Source of the DNA: Thermoanaerobaculia bacterium
GTDB taxonomy: Bacteria; Acidobacteriota; Thermoanaerobaculia; UBA5066
DNA length: 64,000 bases
Reading direction: 5' to 3'
Assembly (NCBI GenBank): GCA_022071945.1
Contig: JAJVIN010000014.1
Span: forward strand, 62,001-126,000
Positions 15,624 through 29,672 of this stretch are shown here, piece after piece. Position numbers and translations under genes: made by a program. The notes under the pieces are model-generated. The model saw only the letters and a list, made by a program, of their open reading frames with translations. It did not search any database and was not told where the DNA came from. How positions within the stretch are numbered: position 1 is the first letter of the stretch; each line of letters opens with the position of its first letter.

Positions 15624-18600
15624 TCAGGGAGCCGATGCCTCCACGAACGCGCGGAACATCTCGTGCCTCTCCTCGATCGACTCGAGCCGGGCGGCGAACG
15701 AGGGGAGACCGTGAAGACGGGAAAGGGCCCGGTCTCTCTTGATCCAGGGCGCGTTCCAGTACCCGAGGGCCTCGGCTTTCCCGACCCAGCTGACCGCGCC
15801 CTCCAGGTCCCCGAGGGCGGCCCTCACCTTGGCGATCCAGTACGTGAACGTCCCGTCGGCCTGGGCTCCGGGTTCCGCCTGAGCGAGAAGCCGTTCCGCC
15901 TCGCCGCGATCCCCCGAGTGGGCCAGGCTGAACGCCAGGACGCCCCGCGCAATGGCGTTGTCGGGGTCGAGCTCGTATCCGCGACGGATCCACTCGCGTG
16001 ATTCCGCCCGCTTCCCCTCGTAGTAGTGGACGATGCCCTTCCAGTAGTTGAAGTGGCTGTAGCGCGGGCGCGAGGCCAGAAGCGCGTCGATCTCCGCGTG
16101 AGCGTCCTCGAAGCGGTCCTGGTAGATGAGAACCGACAGGCGCGGGATGGAGTGGGTGAAGGCCGCATCGGCCTTTCCGGCCTCGGCCTGTTCCTCCAGG
16201 CACTTCTCCCACAGACCGGTGTTCTTGTAGAGGTAGGCCAGGCCCGAATGCGCGGGAGCGTGGGCGGGATGCGCTTTCAGAACGGCGCGAAACGCGGCCA
16301 GGGCCCGCAGGTTCTCGCCGCGTTCGAGCCGGATGAGACCGAGCGTCGTTTGCGCTTCGGGTACGTGCGCTCCGCCCGGATCGAGTTCGAGAGCCTCGGA
16401 GGCGGCCTTTTCTCCCTGCTCGTAGAGGCCGGCGTCTCCGATGATCTCGGCGGCCTCGCTGAGGTGCCGGGCCAGCCGGGTCAAGAGCCGCGTCCTCTCG
16501 CGCAGCTGGCTCTCGGCGGAGAGACGGGGCGCGAGCTGGACCGCGCGCAGGAGCAACGGGCCGGTCTCTCGCGGGCTCTTGCCGGCGGCTGCATCGGCCG
16601 CGCGCTCGAGGGCCTCGATCGCCCTCGGCCAGTCTCGCGATCTCTCGAAGTGGACGGCGAGAGTCGCCGCGACCGTTTCCGCCGCCCGGGCGTGCCGGCT
16701 GCTGAGGAGAAGGCCGATCGCCTGGTGCCAGGCCGCCTTTCGCTTCGGCGGGATCGAGTCGTACAGGGCGTCCTGGTAGAAGGCATGGACGAATCGGAAT
16801 GCCGACGTGGCCGTCCCGTCGGGGAGCTCGAGCTCGCCCGCGGGCTCGACGAGCTGATGGATGCGGCAGAGGCGGTCGATCCTGTCTTCGACCTCGAGCT
16901 CGTCGAGCGAGAGGGCCGCGGCGACGAGGTTCGAATCAAACGACTCCCCCTGCACGCTCGCGACGGAGAGAAGCCTCTGGTCCGCCTCGTCGAGCCTCTC
17001 CAGCCGGGAGAGGATGACGCCGTTGATCCCGTCCGGGACCTCCTCGGAAAGCTCGGAGAGCGGGCGAGCGGGCCGGGCGAGCCATCCATCCGTCAGGATC
17101 GCTCCGAGCGATCGGAGATGTCTCAGAACGTTCAGGACGAAAAGAGGGTTGCCCTCTGTCCGCTTGTGGACGAACCGGACGATCTCCGGATCGACGACCG
17201 TGACTCCGAGCTCGCGCGCGACGAACCTCTCGACCTCGCTTTGCGAGAAGGGCTGAGGGGAGATCTCGGCGCTGATGGAGCCCGACGCCGAGAATCCCCT
17301 CAGGATCTGCCGCAGCGGGTGCCGCGCCACCTCGACGTCGGAGCGCCGGTAGGTTGCCAGGACGAGGAGGCGCATCTCCCCGATCCGCCGGGCCAGGTAC
17401 GCCAGGAGGTCCACGCTCGAGGCGTCGGCCCAGTGGAGATCCTCGAGCACCAGGATCAACGGCCGGATCGTCGACAGGACGGCCAGGAAGTCGGTCATCT
17501 CGCGCGGCATCCGCTCCTGGGCGACGAAGCCCGGCGCCTCGTTTCTCGACTCTCCGGCGAGCGCGGGCAGGTGGCGGCACCAGGTGGGCGCGAGCGTCCG
17601 GAGGAATCCGGAGACGCGCCCCTCCTCCAGCTTGTTGAGGAGCCGGCCCGCGATCTCGAGGAACGGCAGGTAGGCCTCGCCCCCTCCGAAATGCTCCGAG
17701 CAGCGGCCGACGGCGGTCAGGAGCTCGGGCCTCGTGGCCGTTTCCCGGGCGAGGAACGCCTCGATCAGCGTCGTCTTGCCGGAGCCGGGCTCCCCCGAGA
17801 TCAGGACATAGCCGCCGCGCCCCCCGAGGGCGTCCTCGAACCGGGTCCGGATCGCGGAGAGCTGCCGCTCGCGTCCGATCGGCTCTGACCCTCCCGGTTC
17901 GGGTAGAGAAGCTTTTTGCCCGATCAGCGTCAGGGCCGGAGTCGGCCTTGTCTGGACTTCGGTTCCCGCCCGGGGACCGATCAGCGCCGACGACAGGGCC
18001 CGGGCGAACTCACTGGCGGACTCGTAGCGGTTCGCCGGGTTCTTTTCCAGGCAGCGCAGGATCGCGTTGGAGGCGGCCTCGGGGATCTCCGGAGCGATCG
18101 ACCTGGGGGACGGGGCCGGTTCCCCGACGTGCTTCATGAGCACCTGCAAGACGCCCGGTGCATCGAAAGGGAGAGCGCCGGTCAGCATCTGAAAAGCGAT
18201 CACGCCGAGGCTGTAGATGTCGCTCTTGCCGTCGACCGAAAGCCCCGAGGCCTGCTCGGGGCTCATGAAATGTGGTGTTCCAACGGCGTGGTCCCCCGTC
18301 AGGCCCGGAGCCGATTCCTCGTCAGAAGAGAGGCTTGCGAGGCCGAAGTCCGCGACCTTCACCACGTCCCCGTGCAAGAGAACGTTGGCGGGTTTCAGAT
18401 CCCGGTGGACGATCCCCACGTCGTGGGCGGCGGTGAGGGCCGAACTCACGGCTCCCACCACCTGGACCGTCCGCCTGAAGCTCGCCTTGCCCGTTCTCGA
18501 AAGCTCGTCCGCCAGGCTCCCGCCGTCGCAGAGCTCCATGACGAGGTACGGCTCGCATCCGGCGTGGCGGACGAAATCGTGGACGACGACGACGTTCGGG

Positions 18601-18821
18601 TGGTTCAGCCGTCCGGCCGCCCTCGCTTCGCGGCGGAATCTCTCGAACGAGACCGGATCCGAGATCCCCTCCAGGAGGAACTTGATGGCCACGAGACGCC
18701 CCATCTCCTCGTGGCGGGCTTCGAAGACGGCGCCTCTCCCACCCACTCCGATCCTGCGGAGGAGCCGGTACCGGCCGTCCAGAAGGTCGCCGGCCTTGCG
18801 TCTCAGTTCCGAGCCTTCCAT
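15624..18821 (-). CDS. Ser/Thr protein kinase fused to AAA-type ATPase and TPR domains
   Basis: A 1065-residue cytoplasmic chimera. Residues about 15-275 are an intact PknB-type kinase: glycine loop RIGVGGRGAVFEA, Lys in VAIKFL, HRDLKPANVLL, DFGLASL and VGTPHFMSPEQ. Residues about 315-600 are a STAND/AAA ATPase with Walker A GEPGSGKTTL and Walker B LILVLEDLHWAD. The rest is alpha-helical with TPR-like repeats. Proteins of this layout act as signal-responsive regulators, often of secondary metabolism or stress in Myxococcota, Acidobacteriota and Actinobacteria (family knowledge). It is monocistronic, with about 200 bp upstream. Targets are unknown. Confidence 0.9.
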   Translation of the reverse strand: MEGSELRRKAGDLLDGRYRLLRRIGVGGRGAVFEARHEEMGRLVAIKFLLEGISDPVSFERFRREARAAGRLNHPNVVVVHDFVRHAGCEPYLVMELCDGGSLADELSRTGKASFRRTVQVVGAVSSALTAAHDVGIVHRDLKPANVLLHGDVVKVADFGLASLSSDEESAPGLTGDHAVGTPHFMSPEQASGLSVDGKSDIYSLGVIAFQMLTGALPFDAPGVLQVLMKHVGEPAPSPRSIAPEIPEAASNAILRCLEKNPANRYESASEFARALSSALIGPRAGTEVQTRPTPALTLIGQKASLPEPGGSEPIGRERQLSAIRTRFEDALGGRGGYVLISGEPGSGKTTLIEAFLARETATRPELLTAVGRCSEHFGGGEAYLPFLEIAGRLLNKLEEGRVSGFLRTLAPTWCRHLPALAGESRNEAPGFVAQERMPREMTDFLAVLSTIRPLILVLEDLHWADASSVDLLAYLARRIGEMRLLVLATYRRSDVEVARHPLRQILRGFSASGSISAEISPQPFSQSEVERFVARELGVTVVDPEIVRFVHKRTEGNPLFVLNVLRHLRSLGAILTDGWLARPARPLSELSEEVPDGINGVILSRLERLDEADQRLLSVASVQGESFDSNLVAAALSLDELEVEDRIDRLCRIHQLVEPAGELELPDGTATSAFRFVHAFYQDALYDSIPPKRKAAWHQAIGLLLSSRHARAAETVAATLAVHFERSRDWPRAIEALERAADAAAGKSPRETGPLLLRAVQLAPRLSAESQLRERTRLLTRLARHLSEAAEIIGDAGLYEQGEKAASEALELDPGGAHVPEAQTTLGLIRLERGENLRALAAFRAVLKAHPAHAPAHSGLAYLYKNTGLWEKCLEEQAEAGKADAAFTHSIPRLSVLIYQDRFEDAHAEIDALLASRPRYSHFNYWKGIVHYYEGKRAESREWIRRGYELDPDNAIARGVLAFSLAHSGDRGEAERLLAQAEPGAQADGTFTYWIAKVRAALGDLEGAVSWVGKAEALGYWNAPWIKRDRALSRLHGLPSFAARLESIEERHEMFRAFVEASAP

Positions 18822-19023: not shown

Positions 19024-20400
19024 TCAGGTATCCCGCTCCTCGAGCACGATCTCGGAAGCGAGTTCCAGCCGGAAGCGTCCTCTCTTGACGGGGACGAGGG
19101 TCACATCCGGACAGCGGTCCTCGAGCCGCTTGCGCAAGAGGACGAGCCGGCTCTCGAGGTTGTCCTTGTAAGCCGGGAGGCCGAGCGAGGGATCCATCCG
19201 CAGCTCCATGTTTCCGAACTCGGATCGCCCCTCTTTCTGATGGGCTGAAAGGAGGCGCCAGAGAATCCTCGCGGGAACGTTCCTGACGAGGTACTCGCCG
19301 TCGATGAAGACGCAGTCCTCTCCCCTGTAGTAGACGAAGGTCCGTCTCGGGCGTGCCGCGGGGGCCACGTGTCGAGGCGTGGCCTCGGGAACCTCGGCCT
19401 CGGATTCCGGCGAGTCCGAGAACCGGTCGATGCCGATCGCGACCTGGTTCGCGATGACCTCCAGATAAGGTTCGTGCCAGTCGGAGAAGGCGAGGGGCTC
19501 TCGGCTCTCGACGGCCAGGACTCCCAGCAACCGGTCCCCGACCACGAGCGGGAGGGCGAGCTGGCTCTCGGCATCGGGCAGTCCCGGAAGAGGCACCTCC
19601 GGCCGCAGGGACGAGGCGTCCCCGGTCTCGGCGACACGCCCCCGGATGGCTCGGCCATAACGGAGGAGGGTGTCGACTCCCGTCAGACGGAGAGGCGCGC
19701 GCCGCTCTGCCACGGTTCCGATCAACCCGGCCCCCAGGGGGACTTCCGCCCCGATGCCGCTGGTCCCGTAGCCGTGGCTCGCGATCGTCACGAGGGTCTT
19801 CGTGCCCTCCTCGAAAAGGAGGATCATCGAGTGCCGGAACCGGAAGAGCTCGTCGAGGGCGGCCAGAACGTCCTGCAAGAGCGCCTCGAGGTCGGGCGAC
19901 CGGTTGAGGCGGCAGGACACGAGCGAGAGCGCGCGCAGCTCGCTCAAGGGACCCGCGGCCACGGGCTCGGCGCAGGCCTCGCCGGCGGGTCTCTCGTCGA
20001 GGAATCCCTCTTCCTTGCGAGCCCAGAGGACTTCACAGATGTCGGCGGAGCGGAGCTTGAAGACTCCCGCCATCCCGCTGTGAGACGCAATCACCTGGAT
20101 CCGCGCCGCCATGGCGTCGAAGAGAGGCCCCTCGGTCTCGGAGCGGACGTACTTGAGGCCGAGGTGATAGGCCTCGTAGGTGACCGGATCCCAGAGCTCG
20201 ACGCGCGCGAAGGGGTTCTCGTCGAAGTTCCGCCGCGTCTTGTTGAAGAACTGGCACGAGATGGCAACGTGCCGGGAGTCCACGTAGTGGACCTGGCTGA
20301 GGAAGGTGACGTTGGGCGTGCCGTCCCTGGCGCAGGTCGCGATGACACAGGGGATGATCCCCTGCAGGCAGCGGCGGATCTCCTCGAGGCGCAGGCTCAT
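19024..20400 (-). CDS. FMN-binding split-barrel (PNPOx-like) + GAF + winged-helix regulator
   Basis: A 458-residue three-domain protein. Residues about 1-135 are a pyridoxamine-oxidase-like FMN split barrel (VIATCARDGTPNVTFLSQVHYVD, FFNKTRRNF). Residues about 155-315 are a GAF domain (LEALLQDVLAALDELF, PLGAGLIGTVAERRAPLRL, LALPLVVGDRLLGVLAV). Residues about 355-450 resemble an OmpR/PhoB-type winged helix: RILWRLLSAHQ, then DNLESRLVLLRKRLED, then VKRGRFRLEL as the wing. The ATG at 20400 overlaps the stop of the preceding PNPOx gene (ATGA), so both are made together. I infer a one-component flavin/redox sensor that binds DNA; the 11-bp repeats upstream of the operon are the obvious candidate site. 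DNA binding is not proven from sequence. Confidence 0.72.
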   Translation of the reverse strand: MSLRLEEIRRCLQGIIPCVIATCARDGTPNVTFLSQVHYVDSRHVAISCQFFNKTRRNFDENPFARVELWDPVTYEAYHLGLKYVRSETEGPLFDAMAARIQVIASHSGMAGVFKLRSADICEVLWARKEEGFLDERPAGEACAEPVAAGPLSELRALSLVSCRLNRSPDLEALLQDVLAALDELFRFRHSMILLFEEGTKTLVTIASHGYGTSGIGAEVPLGAGLIGTVAERRAPLRLTGVDTLLRYGRAIRGRVAETGDASSLRPEVPLPGLPDAESQLALPLVVGDRLLGVLAVESREPLAFSDWHEPYLEVIANQVAIGIDRFSDSPESEAEVPEATPRHVAPAARPRRTFVYYRGEDCVFIDGEYLVRNVPARILWRLLSAHQKEGRSEFGNMELRMDPSLGLPAYKDNLESRLVLLRKRLEDRCPDVTLVPVKRGRFRLELASEIVLEERDT

Positions 20401-20894
20401 GCCCCCCTCGAACCGGCGAATCGGGCGCCGGCCTCGGGTCCGGGAGTCTGCTCGAAGACTTCCCTGATCTCGATGATGAGCGCCCGGCAGGGCCAGCGGT
20501 TCTTCCGGCGGATCGCCTCGCGGGCCATCCCGACCGACTCCACCTGGTAGAAGAAGCCGTTCATGCACGACTCGACGGTCTCCTTCTCGGCCGCCGTGGC
20601 GCTCCGCATCTCGACGCAGCGGCCCTTCAGCTGGACGGCGCGGTGCATCAGGACTTCCTCCATGACGACGGCGATGGCGGAGTTGCCGGCGATGTTCTCG
20701 AAGGTCTCCTTCCCGGTGGCCTCGGGGACGAAGACGGTGAGGAGGTGCGTGAGAGGGTCGTACGAGAAGCCGACGCCCGTCGCGCAGGCGGGGAAAAGAC
20801 TTTCATCCCGCGTCCCGACGGCGATGGCGACCAGGCCGCGGAGGACGCGCGTGAGGGCGGGAGGACCTCCGAGCACGGCGCGGGAGTATGACAC
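20397..20894 (-). CDS. Pyridoxamine 5'-phosphate oxidase-like FMN-binding protein
   Basis: A 165-residue single-domain split-barrel protein with a GTG start. Recognisable elements are the N-terminal strand pair, LTHLLTVFVPEATGKETFENIAGNS (FMN-site region) and LKGRCVEMRSAT. Such proteins bind FMN, F420 or heme and often act as general stress or redox proteins; lack of the full PdxH motif set argues against a true PNPOx. It is the first gene of a two-gene operon with the PNPOx-GAF-winged-helix protein, and divergent from the MBL gene at 21027. The tandem half-sites at 20906-20949 lie directly upstream of its start. Confidence 0.75.
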   Translation of the reverse strand: MSYSRAVLGGPPALTRVLRGLVAIAVGTRDESLFPACATGVGFSYDPLTHLLTVFVPEATGKETFENIAGNSAIAVVMEEVLMHRAVQLKGRCVEMRSATAAEKETVESCMNGFFYQVESVGMAREAIRRKNRWPCRALIIEIREVFEQTPGPEAGARFAGSRGA

Positions 20895-20905
20895 GCCGCA
20901 CAGAC

Positions 20906-20949
20906 CTTAAGAAACTCTTAGGGTTTCGCTAAGAACTACTTAGGTGGCG
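20906..20949. promoter_or_regulatory. Four tandem half-sites with 11-bp period (candidate operator)
   Basis: Four consecutive 11-mers begin CTTAAG, CTTAGG, GCTAAG and CTTAGG at 20906, 20917, 20928 and 20939. The core yTTArG/CTAAG recurs at exactly 11-bp spacing, one helical turn, in an AT-rich island within otherwise GC-rich DNA. Direct repeats of this spacing are the hallmark of OmpR/PhoB-family sites. They lie 12 bp from the GTG of the PNPOx gene and about 80 bp from the MBL start, in a position to control both. Confidence 0.6.
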
Positions 20950-20972
20950 TCCGAGCGCGCGCGGCCGCACCT

Positions 20973-21023
20973 TTTCTCCTGTCAGGCGGCGAGCCGCCCG
21001 AGACGAGAAAGAGACAGGAGAAA
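20973..21023 (+). promoter_or_regulatory. Stem-loop masking the Shine-Dalgarno of the MBL gene
   Basis: TTTCTCCTGTC at 20973-20983 is perfectly complementary to GACAGGAGAAA at 21013-21023, which contains the AGGAG ribosome-binding site of the ATG at 21027. A second hairpin, GGCGGC/GCCGCC (20985-20998), sits inside the loop. The 11-bp pairing would hide the site in the mRNA leader, so translation is probably controlled by a protein, ligand, temperature or processing. The pairing is directly visible; the regulatory use is inferred. Confidence 0.65.
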
Positions 21024-21026
21024 GCC

Positions 21027-21833
21027 ATGACGGCCATCAACACGACCCTTCGCCTCCACGACGACATCACCCTGATCCAGCAGGCGGAACCGGTGCCCGG
21101 GAAGGGGTTCCTTCCCGTCCACTCGTACCTGATCTCGGGCGCTCAGCCGGTCTTGATCGACACCGGGGTCATCCGGGAGAAGGACGCCTTCATGGCGGCG
21201 CTGGAGTCGGTCATCGACCCGGCCGATCTCGCCTGGATCATCCTCACTCACCCCGACTCCGACCACGTCGGCGCTCTTCCCGAGCTCCTCGAGCGCGCGC
21301 CCAACGCCCGGCTGGTCCTTAACTGGATTTCGACCGGGAAGCTCTCGGCCATGATGCCGCCGCCGATGCCGCGGGTCACCTGGGTGAATCACGACGAGTC
21401 CCTGGCTGCCGGAGACAGGGTCCTTCACTTCGTGAGGCCGCCCATGTACGACTGTCCCTCGACCGTGGCCGTCTTCGATTCGAAGACCCGGACCCTCTTC
21501 AGTTCCGATGCGTTCGGAGCGTTCGTGCCCGTCCTGACGACGCACTTCGCCGACCAGGTGGCCGAGTTCGCCCTCGAGGGGATGTCCACGTTCTGTCGCG
21601 CCAACTCGCCCTGGATCTCGGAAACGCAGCCGGACCGCTACCTCGCGACGCTCAAGTCCCTTGACTCTCTCGAGCCCTCGTGGGTTCTCTCCGGTCATTT
21701 TCCGGCCGTTTCCCGGCGCGAGGCCAAGACGCTCTTCGCTCGCGCCGCCCGGCTGCCGGAGGAAGGCCGGGTCCCCGCGCCGACCCACCAGGCCCTGACG
21801 GCCATGCTCGCGTCCCTCGCCAGGGCCGCCTGA
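21027..21833 (+). CDS. Flavodiiron/ODP-like metallo-beta-lactamase-fold protein
   Basis: A 268-residue MBL-fold protein resembling the diiron domain of flavodiiron proteins and the oxygen-binding ODP proteins, without a flavodoxin domain. The first metal motif is THPDSDHVG (HxDxDH), the bridging Asp region LFSSDAFGAF is typical of flavodiiron proteins, and SGHFPAV supplies the last His. At the position of the second conserved His (usually in MLHWPD) it has MYDCPS, so one ligand is Asp or absent. A likely role is O2, NO or peroxide binding or reduction with an external flavin partner, and the divergent FMN proteins are candidates. Translation looks controlled by the leader hairpin. Confidence 0.78.
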   Translation: MTAINTTLRLHDDITLIQQAEPVPGKGFLPVHSYLISGAQPVLIDTGVIREKDAFMAALESVIDPADLAWIILTHPDSDHVGALPELLERAPNARLVLNWISTGKLSAMMPPPMPRVTWVNHDESLAAGDRVLHFVRPPMYDCPSTVAVFDSKTRTLFSSDAFGAFVPVLTTHFADQVAEFALEGMSTFCRANSPWISETQPDRYLATLKSLDSLEPSWVLSGHFPAVSRREAKTLFARAARLPEEGRVPAPTHQALTAMLASLARAA

Positions 21834-21845
21834 GCGAGGGAAGCG

Positions 21846-21926
21846 ATGAACGCCCTGCCCGCCTTCTCGCTCTTGGTCCTGCTCCCGGTCTGTCTGTCTT
21901 CCCTCGTCGCGTGTTCCCCGCGCTGA
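21846..21926 (+). CDS. 26-residue lipoprotein-like peptide
   Basis: A short frame begins 12 bp after the MBL stop, preceded by GAGGGA at a good distance from the ATG. The product is one hydrophobic segment (FSLLVLLPVCLSSL) ending in a lipobox, LVAC, with only SPR after the acylated Cys. It would be a minimal lipoprotein of entericidin-like size, or a decoy/leader peptide. It shares the transcript with the MBL gene, ahead of the hairpin at 21967. Its length makes the call tentative. Confidence 0.5.
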   Translation: MNALPAFSLLVLLPVCLSSLVACSPR

Positions 21927-22024: not shown

Positions 22025-24115
22025 TCAGCGGGTCTCGGCGGCAAGGACCCGCGCGGTTTCGAGGACCTCGCGAACCTTCGTGGCCAGCTCCATCACGCTG
22101 AAGGGCTTCTGCACGAACTGGATCCCGTCATCGGCCAGTCCGCGCCGGGCGATGACCTCCGCGGGATAGCCCGAGATGTAGAGAGATCTGATCCCCGGCT
22201 GAAGGGACTGGATTCTCGCGGTGAGGTCGCGGCCGTTCATCTCGGGGATGACCACGTCCGTGATGAGAAGGTCGATCTTGTCCGAATGTTCCCTGGCGAT
22301 CTGGATGGCCTCACCGGGGCGCGATGCGGCGAGAACCGTGTACCCGAGCTTCTCGAGCAGGGCGCGCTCGAGTTTGAGAATGGCGACCTCATCCTCGACG
22401 AGGAGCACCGTCTCGCGCCCCGTCGGAACGTCTCCCACGCGGTTCTTCGGGGCAACCGGGAACTCCCTGCCCAGGTAGCGAGGAAAGTAGATGGAAAAGG
22501 CGGTTCCCTTCCCGGGTTCGCTCGTGACATCGATGAATCCCTCGTTCTGGCGGACGATGCCGTAGACAGTCGCCAGCCCAAGGCCGGTGCCCGAGCCCTT
22601 CGTCGAGAAGAAGGGTTCGAAGACGTGTTCCAGCGTGTGGCGGTCCATGCCACAGCCGTCATCCGCGACGCGGAGGACGACGTGATCCCGGTCTTTCAGG
22701 TCGCAGGGAACCACTGCCGGGACTTCGCCGCGAGGGACTCTGGCGGTCTCAATCTGGATGTGTCCGGGCCCTTCGATGGCGTCTCGCGCGTTCACGCACA
22801 GATTCGCGAGGATCTGGTCGACCTGTGTCGGGTCGAGCTTGACGGGCCACAGGCCCGGGTCTGGACGCCAGGAAAGCTCGATCTCCTCGCCGATGAGGCG
22901 GTCGAGCATCCGGAGCATCCGCTCGATGGCGGCGTTGAGGTCGAGGACCTTGGGAACCACGGTTTGCCTTCGCGCAAAGGCAAGGAGCTGCTGTGTCAGC
23001 GCGGCTGAGCGCTCGGCGGCGGCCCGGATCTCGAGGAGGCCGGCGTGGAGCGCGCTTTCTGTGTCGACGAGGGGCAGCGCCTCCTCCGCGTGGCCGAGGA
23101 TGACGGACAGCATGTTGTTGAAGTCATGGGCGACGCCGCCGGCGAGCCGCCCTATCGACTCCATCCGCTCCGCCGTCACCACCCGGTCCTGAAGTTTCAG
23201 CTTCTCCTCGTTGGCGCGTTTTCGCTCCGCGACATCCCACGCGAGGTCGGCGAGGGACGTGGCCGTCTCGATGTCGTCCTCGCGGTAGGGGGCCGGCTTG
23301 TTGCCGACTCCCAGCACGGCCGTGATCTTGCCGTGCCGGAAGACGGGCACCACGAGCTCCCGGATGACGGGGGCGTGGCCTTCGGGGAGCCCCTTGCGGT
23401 TTTTCGCCGTGGCGTAGTCGTTGTGGACGACCGCCCTGCGCTCCCGGATGCACTCCGCCCAGATTCCAGCCTTCTCGACGGCGTAGTGCAGGCCGGCTCC
23501 TTCGGCCGTGCACATCTTTTCGATGGTGTTCGTCGACCACGCCTGGAGCCACAGGGTGTTCTCGTCGGGCTCCACGAAGTGATAGAAGCCGACCTGGCTT
23601 CCCGTCAGGCTTTCGGCCTCGTCCAGAGTCCGGCGCAGGAGCTCGGCGAGCGTGCTGGTTTCGGCGAAGGCCATCAGCCGTAACCGGGCAGCCAGAACCT
23701 CCTCGGACTGCTTCCGCTTCGAGATATCCCGGATGAAGGCCGCGACACGGCCTCCGGCGGGGTCGACGGAAGTGCTCACCTCGACATCGTAGACGTGGCC
23801 GGATTTTGCACGATGACGGGACTCGAAGCGGTCCGCCCCCGTCTCCAGGAGCCTGCGCAGGTGTGCCCGTGTCTCCTCGGGGGATTCGACGGCCTCGAGA
23901 TCGGCGATGGAGAGGCAGAGCAACTCCTGCCGGGTGTATCCGCTCATCTGGCAATAAGCGTCGTTGACGTCCAGAAGCCGGCCGTCTTCTCCGATGAGCC
24001 AGAAGCCATCGAGCGACGTACGCAGGAGATGGGCATAAAGTCCGGCGCCCCGGGGCTCCTCGAGTGCCGCCCCCGCATCGCATCCAGGGGATGAAGAGCC
24101 ACCCTCGCAGCGCAT
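22025..24115 (-). CDS. Soluble hybrid histidine kinase (PAS-GAF-HisKA-HATPase-receiver)
   Basis: A 696-residue cytoplasmic kinase with no membrane segment. The start at 24115 has a GGAGG 8 bp upstream. Order of domains: PAS (about 35-140, LLRTSLDGFWLIGEDGRLLDVNDAY), GAF (about 150-315), HisKA with the His in GVAHDFNNMLS, HATPase_c (DDGCGMD, GTGLGLATVYGIV) and a C-terminal receiver with its Asp in LLITDVVIPEMNG. Such hybrids relay phosphate to a separate phosphotransfer protein or regulator; none is adjacent. It is convergent with the MBL locus. The signal is unknown. Confidence 0.92.
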   Translation of the reverse strand: MRCEGGSSSPGCDAGAALEEPRGAGLYAHLLRTSLDGFWLIGEDGRLLDVNDAYCQMSGYTRQELLCLSIADLEAVESPEETRAHLRRLLETGADRFESRHRAKSGHVYDVEVSTSVDPAGGRVAAFIRDISKRKQSEEVLAARLRLMAFAETSTLAELLRRTLDEAESLTGSQVGFYHFVEPDENTLWLQAWSTNTIEKMCTAEGAGLHYAVEKAGIWAECIRERRAVVHNDYATAKNRKGLPEGHAPVIRELVVPVFRHGKITAVLGVGNKPAPYREDDIETATSLADLAWDVAERKRANEEKLKLQDRVVTAERMESIGRLAGGVAHDFNNMLSVILGHAEEALPLVDTESALHAGLLEIRAAAERSAALTQQLLAFARRQTVVPKVLDLNAAIERMLRMLDRLIGEEIELSWRPDPGLWPVKLDPTQVDQILANLCVNARDAIEGPGHIQIETARVPRGEVPAVVPCDLKDRDHVVLRVADDGCGMDRHTLEHVFEPFFSTKGSGTGLGLATVYGIVRQNEGFIDVTSEPGKGTAFSIYFPRYLGREFPVAPKNRVGDVPTGRETVLLVEDEVAILKLERALLEKLGYTVLAASRPGEAIQIAREHSDKIDLLITDVVIPEMNGRDLTARIQSLQPGIRSLYISGYPAEVIARRGLADDGIQFVQKPFSVMELATKVREVLETARVLAAETR

Positions 24116-24288
24116 CGAGGTCCCTCCGTGCTCGAGAGGTGATCCTGAGATCGATCGCACCGGCCTGCCTTCGAACGGATCGCCGGTGAAATCCGGCCGG
24201 AAAATGTTATCAGACGGCCCTTTTCCGGCCGGCGGCGCCCCTCCGGTCCTCGGGGCCGCGAGCCCTTTGTCGCAAGGCCCCCGGAATG

Positions 24289-24328
24289 GTCCGCGGGGAG
24301 GCTGCACCGGGGCCGGCCTCCCGCGGAC
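24289..24328 (-). terminator. Strong GC hairpin after the alcohol dehydrogenase gene
   Basis: GTCCGCGGGGAGGC (24289-24302) pairs with GCCTCCCGCGGAC (24316-24328) with a single bulge, just beyond the minus-strand stop at 24337. No U-tract is present, so it may stabilise a 3' end rather than terminate by itself. Confidence 0.5.
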
Positions 24329-26776: not shown

Positions 26777-27631
26777 TCACGGGTCCGGGTCGAGCGAGGC
26801 CGCCGAAAAGACTCCTTCCTCGACCCACTCGCGAAACCAGCTCTCGACCTCGCAAGGCCGCGTTGTCCGATGCCGCCTTCCCAGGCGCGTGAGCGCCCGC
26901 CCCAGCGGGATACCGGATGTCAGCGCCTCAAGGAGATGGCCCTCTGCCCCTTCCAGGGTTCTGCGGCTGACCTGGCCGCCCTTTCGCACGAACAAGACGT
27001 GGACGTGCCGTGAACCCGGCACCGCTTCCCGCGGCACCACCTCCCGTTCCGGGGAGTCGAGAAGGCGGAGTGAGGCCGAACGGACCCTCTCGAGGGCGAA
27101 CGCCGCGACGGGCGAAAGCCTGAGCTCCGTGCTCGCCTCGGGCGTGAGTCTCGCGAGAGCCTCGGGCGAGACCGGCGGGTCCTCGGGTGCGTCGAAAACT
27201 CGCGTCAGGGCGAGCTCGAGCCGCGAAAGATCCGAGATGAGGCCGCGCTCCTTCCGCTTTCCCCACGTGGCGGCGAACGCCGGGACGTGATCTCCGAGGC
27301 GGTTCAGCGTGTAGCTTCTCGAGGGATGGGCCTCGACGTAGTCGCTCACGAAGTGCCAGAAACGGTGGGGACCGAGGTGGCGCGCCAGGTTCGGATAGTC
27401 CGACTCGAGCGCGTCGCGCATCCGCAAGAGGTACATCTCCTGATAGATACCGAGCCGCTCGGCCACGGTCAGGTGTCCGGAAGCGAGGACAACTTCCGAA
27501 ACCCTCCCGGGATCGATCAGGGCACGTGCAGGAGAAGACTGAATTCCCGCTTCGGCGCTTTCGGGATGAACGAGGACCGTCTGCATCCAGCGCTCGACGA
27601 GATCGAGAGTGAGGGGTTCAGGCAACGGCAA
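26777..27631 (-). CDS. bufC: DUF2063 protein, BufC/HvfC-type partner of the MNIO enzyme
   Basis: A 284-residue protein with the DUF2063 signature at the N-terminus (RLGIYQEMYLLRMRDALESDYP, then LGPHRFWHFVSDYVEAHPSRSYTLNRLG). In characterised bufferin and methanobactin-like systems the partner binds the precursor leader and presents it to the MNIO (DUF692) enzyme. Its ATG overlaps the end of that enzyme's gene by 14 bp, the normal operon arrangement. A C-terminal half (about 190-284) contains basic, possibly DNA- or peptide-binding sequence. Confidence in family is high; the role is inferred from the operon. Confidence 0.88.
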   Translation of the reverse strand: MPLPEPLTLDLVERWMQTVLVHPESAEAGIQSSPARALIDPGRVSEVVLASGHLTVAERLGIYQEMYLLRMRDALESDYPNLARHLGPHRFWHFVSDYVEAHPSRSYTLNRLGDHVPAFAATWGKRKERGLISDLSRLELALTRVFDAPEDPPVSPEALARLTPEASTELRLSPVAAFALERVRSASLRLLDSPEREVVPREAVPGSRHVHVLFVRKGGQVSRRTLEGAEGHLLEALTSGIPLGRALTRLGRRHRTTRPCEVESWFREWVEEGVFSAASLDPDP

Positions 27632-28475
27632 CCTCCTCGCGGTGAATCCCGGCGGCCAGACCCCGAGCCTTCAGCGCCTCGGCATGGACCGTCGCGAAGT
27701 CCGGAATGTCCTCGTCCCACTCGTAGAGCGTTGCCGCCTCCCCGAGCCGTTCGACTGCGTGCGCGTAGAGATCCCAGACTTCGTCCCTGGGCCGCGTCGA
27801 GTGCGTGTCGAGGACGTGAGTCCCCTTGTCCGTGTGTCCGGCGAGGTGGTACTGGACGACGCGGCCGCGGGGAAGGGCATCGATGTAGGAAACCGGATCG
27901 AAACCGTGATTGACGGCCGACACATACACGTTGTTCACATCGAGGAGGAGGCCCGTACCCGCTCGCTCACACAGCTCTGACAGGAACTCGGGCTCCGTCA
28001 TGGTCGACTGCGTGAACTGCAAGTAGGTCGATGGGTTCTCCAGAAAGACGGGCCGTTCTAGGAAATCCATGACCGTTCTCAGGCGCCTCGCGACGTGCGC
28101 CAGAACGCCTTCGGTGTAGGGCAGCGGTAAGAGGTCGTGGACGTTCTTGCCCGCGACGCCTGTCCAGCAGAGGTGGTCGGTCACCCAGCGCGCCTTCACG
28201 CGGCGCGCCAGGCGATTCACCTTCGCGAGGTAGTCGAGATCGAGTGGATCCGTCGATCCGATGGAGAGGGAGACTCCATGGAGAACGACGGGATAGCGCT
28301 CCGCGACCCTGTCGAGGATGTGCAGGGGGCGGCCGCCCGTGTCGAGGAAGTTCTCGGTGATGGCTTCGAAGAAGTCGACGGCGGGCCACCTGGAGAGGAT
28401 CTCGGCATAGTGGACAGTTCGGAGCCCGACGCCGTATCCGAGGTGGGGGAGTCCCCAGCGATTCGTCATCGTCAT
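27618..28475 (-). CDS. bufB: MNIO (DUF692) multinuclear iron oxidase, BufB type
   Basis: A 285-residue TIM-barrel enzyme of the DUF692/MNIO family, which oxidises cysteines of a peptide substrate to oxazolone- or thiooxazole-type groups. Family landmarks in order are LGYGVGLRTVHYAEIL, FFEAITENF, HGVSLSIG, VTDHLCWTG, FLENPSTYLQF, LLLDVNNVYV, YHLAGH and YEWDEDIP; these carry the His, Asp, Glu and Asn iron ligands. The ATG at 28475 is chosen; the Met two codons later is possible. The precursor gene ends 52 bp upstream and bufC overlaps downstream. The substrate is evidently the adjacent Cys-rich peptide. Confidence 0.93.
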   Translation of the reverse strand: MTMTNRWGLPHLGYGVGLRTVHYAEILSRWPAVDFFEAITENFLDTGGRPLHILDRVAERYPVVLHGVSLSIGSTDPLDLDYLAKVNRLARRVKARWVTDHLCWTGVAGKNVHDLLPLPYTEGVLAHVARRLRTVMDFLERPVFLENPSTYLQFTQSTMTEPEFLSELCERAGTGLLLDVNNVYVSAVNHGFDPVSYIDALPRGRVVQYHLAGHTDKGTHVLDTHSTRPRDEVWDLYAHAVERLGEAATLYEWDEDIPDFATVHAEALKARGLAAGIHREEVAVA

Positions 28476-28527
28476 CTCGCGGTCAAGACCGGGGTCTGGG
28501 GGTTCACGGGCCAGACCCCGGCTCCTC

Positions 28528-29004
28528 TCACTTGGCCTTCTTCTCCTGGACCGGGACGGCGCAGCCGCCCTTGCCCTTGCACGAGTTCTTTCCGGCGCAG
28601 CCGTTGTCGCCGGCGGCACAGCCGCCCATTCCCTTGCAGGCGTTGTGGCCCTTGCACTCGTGCTTGGCGGCGGCCGCGGCGCAGCCGCCCTTGCCCTTGC
28701 ACGAGTTCTTTCCGGCGCAGCCATTGTCGCCGGACGCGCACGTGCCCTTGCCCTTGCAGGCGTTGTGACCCTTGCAGATGTGCTTGTCGGCTGCCTTCTT
28801 GTCCGAAGCGGTGTCGGTGCTCTTGCTTCCGCATCCGCCGGGGCCCTTGCACGAGTTCTTGTCGGAGCTCTTCCCGGCCGCCGGTGATTTCGGCGCGGCC
28901 GTGTTCTTCTCCTGGGCAAAAGCCGCGCCCGCGAGGAGAGCAGATCCAGCCAAGAGGCCCGCCACGGCGGCGGAGAGGTAGCGATTGGGACGGTTCTTCT
29001 TCAT
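28528..29004 (-). CDS. bufA2: Cys-rich bufferin-type RiPP precursor (BufA2-like) with tandem duplication
   Basis: A 158-residue precursor. The signal peptide (KKNRPNRYLSAAVAGLLAG...AFA) directs it to the periplasm. The mature part is nearly all short Cys motifs: CKGHNACKGKG, CAGKNSCKGKGGC and NSCKGPGGC, 14 cysteines in all. A 40-residue block with six Cys occurs twice in tandem (residues about 69-108 and 109-148), and the DNA repeats too. In known bufferins, MNIO-modified cysteines bind copper in the periplasm and blunt metal toxicity. Pairing with DUF692, DUF2063 and DoxX genes makes the assignment firm; the metal and the exact modification are not visible. Confidence 0.9.
   Translation of the reverse strand: MKKNRPNRYLSAAVAGLLAGSALLAGAAFAQEKNTAAPKSPAAGKSSDKNSCKGPGGCGSKSTDTASDKKAADKHICKGHNACKGKGTCASGDNGCAGKNSCKGKGGCAAAAAKHECKGHNACKGMGGCAAGDNGCAGKNSCKGKGGCAVPVQEKKAK
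28561..28800. repeat. 120-bp tandem duplication in the bufferin precursor gene
   Basis: Two units, 28561-28680 and 28681-28800, align without gaps. Their first 42 bases are identical (28561-28602 and 28681-28722) and the rest differ mainly at silent or conservative positions. Each unit codes for the same six-Cys block, so the copy number of metal-binding sites can change by recombination. Confidence 0.9.
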
Positions 29005-29165
29005 GTCGATCTCCTTTTCGATCGTTCTGTTCGTGGGCCTGGCGGCTCTTTTGGCCGCGTGCCCGTTCCTGTCGCGTTGGGTTGTGTGATGCCGCGCCCT
29101 GGTCCGCCGTTACACGTCCCCTGGAGAAACCAGGCCGGGCTGTCGAGAGCCGACGTGCCTCCGGT

Positions 29166-29672
29166 TCAGGACCTCGCGGAGAGAAGGGATTCCGCCGTCT
29201 CCGTCTCCTTCTCGTTCGACTCCGTGAACCAGGAGATGAGGCGGTCCAGGGAGAGCGGTCCCGCGCCAAAGGCCGCGAGCATTCCGAGCAGGATGATGTA
29301 GAGGAACTCCGAGAGGGCGAAGAGATCCGACAGCGCCGTGATCTCGGATCGCTTTGCCGCCAGGATCGCCACGGTCATCGTCACGGCGAGCGGGACGGCC
29401 GCGATGCGTGTGAGAAGCCCGGCGAGAAGGAGGAGCCCGCAAACGAGCTCCGTTGCCGCCGCTAGGGGAGCCTGGATCCCGGGGGCCGGAATGCCGAGGC
29501 TCGCGAAGAAGTCGATCACCCTGGGCAGGTTGTGGAGCTTGCCCCAGCCCGACTCGACGAAGATCCAGCCGAGCGTCACGCGGGCCAAGAGCAGGGGGAG
29601 CCACTCCATGGCGCGTGAGACTTTGAGTACAAAATTCCTGGCGGCGGCGACACGCGTGGCGAGTCCAGACAT
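29166..29672 (-). CDS. DoxX-family membrane protein (BufD/HvfX-like)
   Basis: A 168-residue integral membrane protein with four hydrophobic segments. The DoxX motif ARVTLGWIFVESGWGKL is in the first, and TELVCGLLLLAGLLTRIAAVPLA in the second and third. DoxX proteins are regular members of bufferin/MNIO operons, with an unresolved role in quinone-linked redox. A GAGGAA lies ahead of the ATG. It is the first gene of the set DoxX-bufA2-bufB-bufC, but a 161-bp gap separates it from the precursor gene, which may have its own promoter. Confidence 0.85.
   Translation of the reverse strand: MSGLATRVAAARNFVLKVSRAMEWLPLLLARVTLGWIFVESGWGKLHNLPRVIDFFASLGIPAPGIQAPLAAATELVCGLLLLAGLLTRIAAVPLAVTMTVAILAAKRSEITALSDLFALSEFLYIILLGMLAAFGAGPLSLDRLISWFTESNEKETETAESLLSARS

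Follow-up and report, generated by a model that had tools for sequence, protein, structure and literature searches.

A split-barrel, GAF and winged-helix gene pair: a probable, so far undescribed one-component activator whose regulon spans several phyla

Regulators of the OmpR/PhoB family (PhoB, BaeR, SaeR, Mycobacterium tuberculosis PhoP and one-component activators with an OmpR fold) use a winged helix to recognize direct repeats with an 11-bp pitch, which lie in a fixed orientation by the core promoter. M. tuberculosis PhoP binds direct repeats of 7-bp motifs with 4-bp spacers (11-bp pitch) and forms up to tetramers (PMC4832192). A second point of comparison is the NsrR and NorR regulons with their hemerythrin-like targets YtfE, Ric and NorA, for which we took the diiron ligands of YtfE as the reference pattern (PMC9052748). 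Here we describe two adjacent genes, P1 and P2, in a 64,000-nucleotide stretch of contig JAJVIN010000014.1 from a Thermoanaerobaculia bacterium (hereafter the window). The pair has the look of a one-component activator that has not been described before and whose regulon extends across phyla. We regard it as quite probable that P1 and P2 together make up a one-component sensor and regulator which binds an operator of four direct repeats and activates the genes behind it; this statement does not extend to the identity of the signal. In the literature searched (subscription journals lay outside it), no description was found that combines PNPOx or pyridoxamine with GAF and with hemerythrin or a winged helix.

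P2 (19024..20400, minus strand) encodes 458 amino acids. Its N-terminus is a PNPOx_N split barrel (residues 6-95; Pfam E 1.9e-8, 35.1 bits against a cut-off of 28.1), followed by a GAF domain (170-325; E 4e-15, 56.6 bits, above the cut-off), the fold of which is supported by structure comparison (Z 22 to 3ci6). FMN or F420 is a frequent ligand of split-barrel proteins, and GAF domains usually bind small molecules. In the Pfam scan no receiver domain (Response_reg) was found at the N-terminus, where PNPOx_N and GAF stand instead. The C-terminus (348-458) had no sequence match in Pfam or the PDB, and the OmpR-type Pfam domain was absent among its hits. Because a search with the model of the whole protein filled up with GAF domains, this part was folded on its own with 65 homologues, which gave a pLDDT of 93.4. 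The top structural matches of the model were the DNA-binding domains of OmpR/PhoB proteins, namely BaeR, SaeR, GlnR, AdeR and PhoB, with VIA-align Z values of 10.9 for BaeR (96 residues, root mean square deviation 2.4 A), 10.0 for SaeR and 8.9 for PhoB. An N-terminal beta sheet, alpha1, a beta element, alpha2-alpha3 and a C-terminal hairpin wing are all present. As modelled, the C-terminus of P2 (about residues 348-458; 19027..19359, minus strand) is an OmpR/PhoB-type winged helix, as the initial annotation had supposed, and no other part of the protein is as well conserved. P2 differs from the OmpR/PhoB family in that it has no receiver domain and that its sequence does not match the family's Pfam domain; its input part consists of a split barrel and a GAF domain, with a separate split-barrel partner that is nearly constant.

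This partner is P1 (20397..20876, minus strand), a small PNPOx-like split-barrel protein. On its own P1 gives a weak PNPOx_N match below the cut-off. In the fused homologue L087, PNPOx_N is found with 1.8e-13 and 51.4 bits, and the best stretch lies within the P1 part. Through P2 and the P1 part of L087, the pair resembles PNPOx-like split barrels of the FMN, F420 or heme-binding kind, and it may bind such a cofactor. The split barrels would here be the paired N-terminal parts of a predicted transcription regulator, a use for which no description was found in the literature searched. P1 has 159 amino acids when read from the GTG at 20876 and 165 from the GTG at 20894. The former is the more likely start, since the candidate -10 box CATACT (20885..20890, minus strand) lies 8 nt upstream of it in a leaderless-like arrangement and TANNNT boxes precede the P1 starts in relatives.

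Scanning an alignment of P2 against 84,980 genomes gave 80 named loci, mostly from metagenome-assembled genomes (MAGs); a few record labels look doubtful. Five phyla are represented (Acidobacteriota, Planctomycetota, Myxococcota, Pseudomonadota, Chloroflexota), together with a single actinomycete record. Kinship among the loci inflates the counts given below, and more weight lies on the breadth of phyla and on the switches in target gene than on the totals. In all 80, P2 is preceded on its own strand by a P1 homologue. The reading frames share a four-base overlap in 68 of them, as they do in the window (ATGA), and in two loci they are separated by about 1-1.5 kb. In L087 (7128-9386) and L117 (7389-9362), which stem from one Acidobacteriota MAG and one Planctomycetota MAG, both genes are fused in one open frame, and the domains of both were confirmed. 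A TANNNT box 6-9 nt before the P1 start was present in 28 of the 80 loci (L045-L124) compared with 7% in shuffles, and therefore leaderless transcripts of the P1-P2 operon are suggested in several phyla. P2 is also carried by 19 plasmid records, and its hosts include bacteria that can be cultured (Rhizobium etli CFN 42 and Azospirillum lipoferum 4B, both among the plasmid records, and Anaeromyxobacter). In existing annotation P2 is called a 'GAF domain-containing protein', P1 a 'pyridoxamine 5'-phosphate oxidase family protein' or a hypothetical protein.

The upstream regions of P1 in its own clade share direct repeats with an 11-bp pitch, CTAAG-N6-CTAAC-N6-CTAAG-N6-CTA. In the window, the four repeats read CTAAG/TTAGC/CTAAG/TTAAG (20906..20943, minus strand), and this is the only CTAAG-N17-CTAAG site with 0 mismatches in the 6.17 Mb genome. 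An inverted repeat, CTAAG-N5-CTTAG, had been the first reading here and was dropped because relatives show direct repeats at the 11-bp pitch. A second site in the same genome (C3:112059, 3 mismatches) was judged to be due to chance: it has no matching -10 box, and a reversed-pattern control also gave hits. The overall consensus is CTAAR-N6-CTAAS-N6-CTAAR-N6-CTAAS. A model of the repeat unit was trained solely on Acidobacteriota sites, without using position or orientation, and the threshold was set to 16.2, the maximum over 240 shuffled loci. Above every shuffle, the operator was found in 48 of the 80 loci and in five phyla (Planctomycetota 14/16, Myxococcota/delta 11/17, Pseudomonadota 13/25, Acidobacteriota 7/16, Chloroflexota 2/3), with second-best scores typically of 0-8.

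The position of the operator is equally regular. At all 41 sites that have a hemerythrin, cytochrome or metallo-beta-lactamase-like (MBL) gene start nearby, it lies just upstream of that start and in the same orientation to it. Among 56 operator-aligned sequences a T at column 34 is constant in 48; a hexamer resembling a -10 box, which follows the final repeat at a distance of about 24 bp, has this T as its last or penultimate base. In the window, this hexamer is CACCTT (20968..20973, plus strand), the candidate -10 box of the MBL promoter. Since the site always faces the same way and ends by the -35 region, with about 24 bp left to the -10 box, the geometry appears to be that of a class II activator. 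P1-P2 itself is preceded by the operator in some lineages only, i. e. its own clade and the Chloroflexota.

Neighbours were taken as genes within 5 kb of P1-P2 and clustered from selected open reading frames (ORFs); since this selection by codon GC is heuristic, the counts are approximate. Among the 80 loci, hemerythrin-like proteins were found at 40, c-type cytochromes at 29, SO2930-type diheme cytochromes at 13 and the dehydrogenase E1 at 7. At least one of hemerythrin-like protein, cytochrome, E1 or MBL was near the pair in 71. The product of the gene divergent from P1 varies: it is the MBL protein in this genome, and among relatives either a cytochrome c or a hemerythrin. The linked hemerythrin-like proteins have the motif H, H-x3-E, H, H-x3-E with five of six positions invariant and E75 at 0.97, and they thereby share the diiron ligand pattern of YtfE. 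Two of three members scanned matched Hemerythrin in Pfam above the cut-off; phmmer found no PDB match. The system differs from the NsrR and NorR regulons in the regulator family, in the operator and in the companion genes, and no ScdA_N domain was found in the hemerythrins scanned.

A search for the operator pattern in whole genomes found sites before an E1 dehydrogenase operon in four relatives (G003, G005, G009, G013) and, in G003, a further one before a cytochrome c pair. Both families also adjoin P1-P2 in other lineages. The E1 orthologues of G003, G005 and G013 have upstream operator scores of 18, while paralogues have 11.5-13.5 and the random 95% level is 13.5. With predicted targets located elsewhere in some genomes, the self-contained system of the initial annotation is not supported. 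The link to diiron and redox proteins proposed there finds partial support, as in other genomes the operator precedes hemerythrin-like diiron proteins and cytochromes c. Pairs of E1 alpha and beta genes linked to the regulator or the operator were seen at L053, L081, L092 and L105, at G003:C15:348474 and at G000:C9:58676; neither an E2 nor an E3 gene was noticed next to them.

Our preferred reading is as follows. The split barrel of P1 would pair with the N-terminal split barrel of P2, probably as a hetero-oligomer with an FMN or heme cofactor at the interface. The GAF domain may relay this signal or add a small-molecule or redox input. The winged helices of P2, which we infer to be the operator-binding protein, would then bind in tandem on the four 11-bp repeats. 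In this genome the regulator would turn on the divergent MBL gene and possibly P1-P2 as well; in other genomes the operator would drive hemerythrin-like diiron proteins, c-type cytochromes and the 2-oxoacid dehydrogenase E1. The weakest step is the signal, likely a diatomic gas or redox stress (NO, O2, reactive species). In its most specific form, to which we give somewhat less than an even chance, the heteromeric P1/P2 split barrel with FMN or heme would sense NO, O2 or reactive species directly, and the module would be a widespread and hitherto unseen counterpart of NsrR and NorR in which hemerythrin, the MBL or cytochrome c, diiron or heme proteins with no relation to one another, take the effector slot in different phyla under one conserved operator.

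The recurrence of E1 could point to a metabolite instead. The regulator would then work as proposed, with a GAF-bound compound as its signal, for example a 2-oxoacid or an aldehyde tied to E1, and the diiron and cytochrome genes would serve its oxidation. The small-molecule binding usual for GAF domains agrees with this, as do the E1 alpha/beta pair as a recurrent metabolic target and the aldehyde-dehydrogenase-like genes near four loci. Yet the target list is dominated by hemerythrin and cytochromes, and E1 is targeted in some lineages only; we consider a metabolite signal less likely than not.

Operator sites go with P2: they were found in 12 of 20 genomes with P2 and in 2 of 19 without it. 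This argues against the operator belonging to another conserved regulator, such as a classical OmpR/PhoB response regulator, with P1-P2 as a merely co-regulated neighbour. OmpR-type operators are generic in form, P1-P2 carries the operator only in its own clade and in Chloroflexota, and a PAS-GAF histidine kinase gene stands beside the MBL gene in the window, all of which would fit such an owner. However, the P2-adjacent targets differ among phyla while the operator and the winged helix of P2 stay conserved, and no response regulator gene is prominent among the recurrent neighbour clusters of P1-P2. An owner other than P2 thus appears improbable.

Several observations speak against P1-P2 as the activator of these genes, or limit how far this reading reaches. 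In the DNA examined around the loci, 32 of 80 have no site above 16.2 and 28 none above 13, and in two of the 14 genomes with sites, G038 and G239 (two of the 12 with P2), these are doubtful. The model of full-length P2 is of modest confidence (pLDDT 71.5), and Foldseek matches of the winged helix have weak E-values (0.03). The gas or redox signal is derived solely from the nature of the targets, among which E1 is no obvious fit. Finally, the E1 orthologue of this genome has no operator and its cytochrome gene begins at a contig edge, and hence the MBL gene, possibly together with P1-P2, is the sole target that can be demonstrated here.

The MBL gene (21027..21833, plus strand) encodes an ODP/flavodiiron-like protein of 268 amino acids, divergent from P1-P2 and the predicted local target. 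Its match to ODP in Pfam (E 4.8e-16, 59.7 bits) exceeds the gathering score of 27.2, and Lactamase_B also matched. At the ligand positions it has H75, D77, D79, H80, D142, D161 and H224, compared with His79, Glu81, Asp83, His84, His147, Asp166 and His227 in the flavodiiron protein (FDP) of E. coli, our reference. H75, D79, H80, D161 and H224 are thus kept, but the full diiron set of FDPs is not: D77 stands for Glu81 and D142 for His147. As Asp replaces these two ligands, iron binding is not to be assumed. Asp is kept at both positions in five homologues. The protein further differs from FDPs in having no flavodoxin domain of its own and in its narrow distribution. Of 396 genomes sampled across the phylum, 4 have it, and it adjoins P1-P2 only in this genome, G003 and G005, which rules it out as a core component.

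P1, P2 and the MBL gene are real and well formed, and ORF calls and Pfam uphold the initial description of a PNPOx-like ORF which is ATGA-coupled to the PNPOx-GAF protein and divergent from an ODP-type MBL gene. The span then given, 20397-21926, includes P1 and the MBL gene and leaves out the gene of the 458-residue protein itself. The role of that protein as a regulator is supported: with its winged helix it has the make-up of a one-component regulator, and the operator at the MBL gene is placed and oriented as at the other predicted targets. The fourth member, a supposed micro-lipoprotein, is an ORF of 26 amino acids (21846..21926, plus strand), which had no counterpart 3' of the MBL gene in either of the two nearest relatives and is probably outside the system. 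The expected conservation of all four genes was not found; what is conserved, in at least five phyla, is the two-gene P1-P2 module. That the two split-barrel flavoproteins give electrons to a diiron MBL protein, with regulation being secondary, agrees with the cofactors common in split barrels and with an ODP-like partner that has no flavodoxin domain, but is very improbable given that nearly all genomes have the pair without the MBL, that P2 bears a winged helix and no enzyme partner domain, that the MBL protein departs from the E. coli FDP at D77 and D142, and that a joint sensor fits better with a pair kept without the MBL and sometimes fused.

On either side the locus is flanked by signaling genes which are not prominent among the recurrent neighbours of P1-P2: a Ser/Thr kinase-AAA-TPR protein (15624-18821, minus strand) and, next to the MBL gene, a PAS-GAF-histidine kinase-receiver hybrid (22025-24307, minus strand). 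Further along the window, 26777-29672 (minus strand) is likely a copper-binding, bufferin-like cluster for a ribosomally synthesized and post-translationally modified peptide. Its precursor is Cys-rich and contains repeats (minus strand, about 28500-29000; MKKNRPNRYLSAAVAG...CKGHNACKGKGTC...), and the cluster also has an MNIO enzyme (MbnB/TglH/ChrH-type), DUF2063 and DoxX.

With P1-P2 as a one-component activator, an uncharacterised regulator family gains a predicted DNA target and, in five phyla (Acidobacteriota, Planctomycetota, Myxococcota, Pseudomonadota, Chloroflexota), a predicted regulon. A gene-specific operator that can be read across phyla is unusual, and it makes the stimulus of the linked hemerythrins and cytochromes directly testable. 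If the reading is true, one short motif would reveal a previously unseen stress or redox response, and the exchange of unrelated diiron proteins behind one and the same operator would make a clear example of functional substitution.

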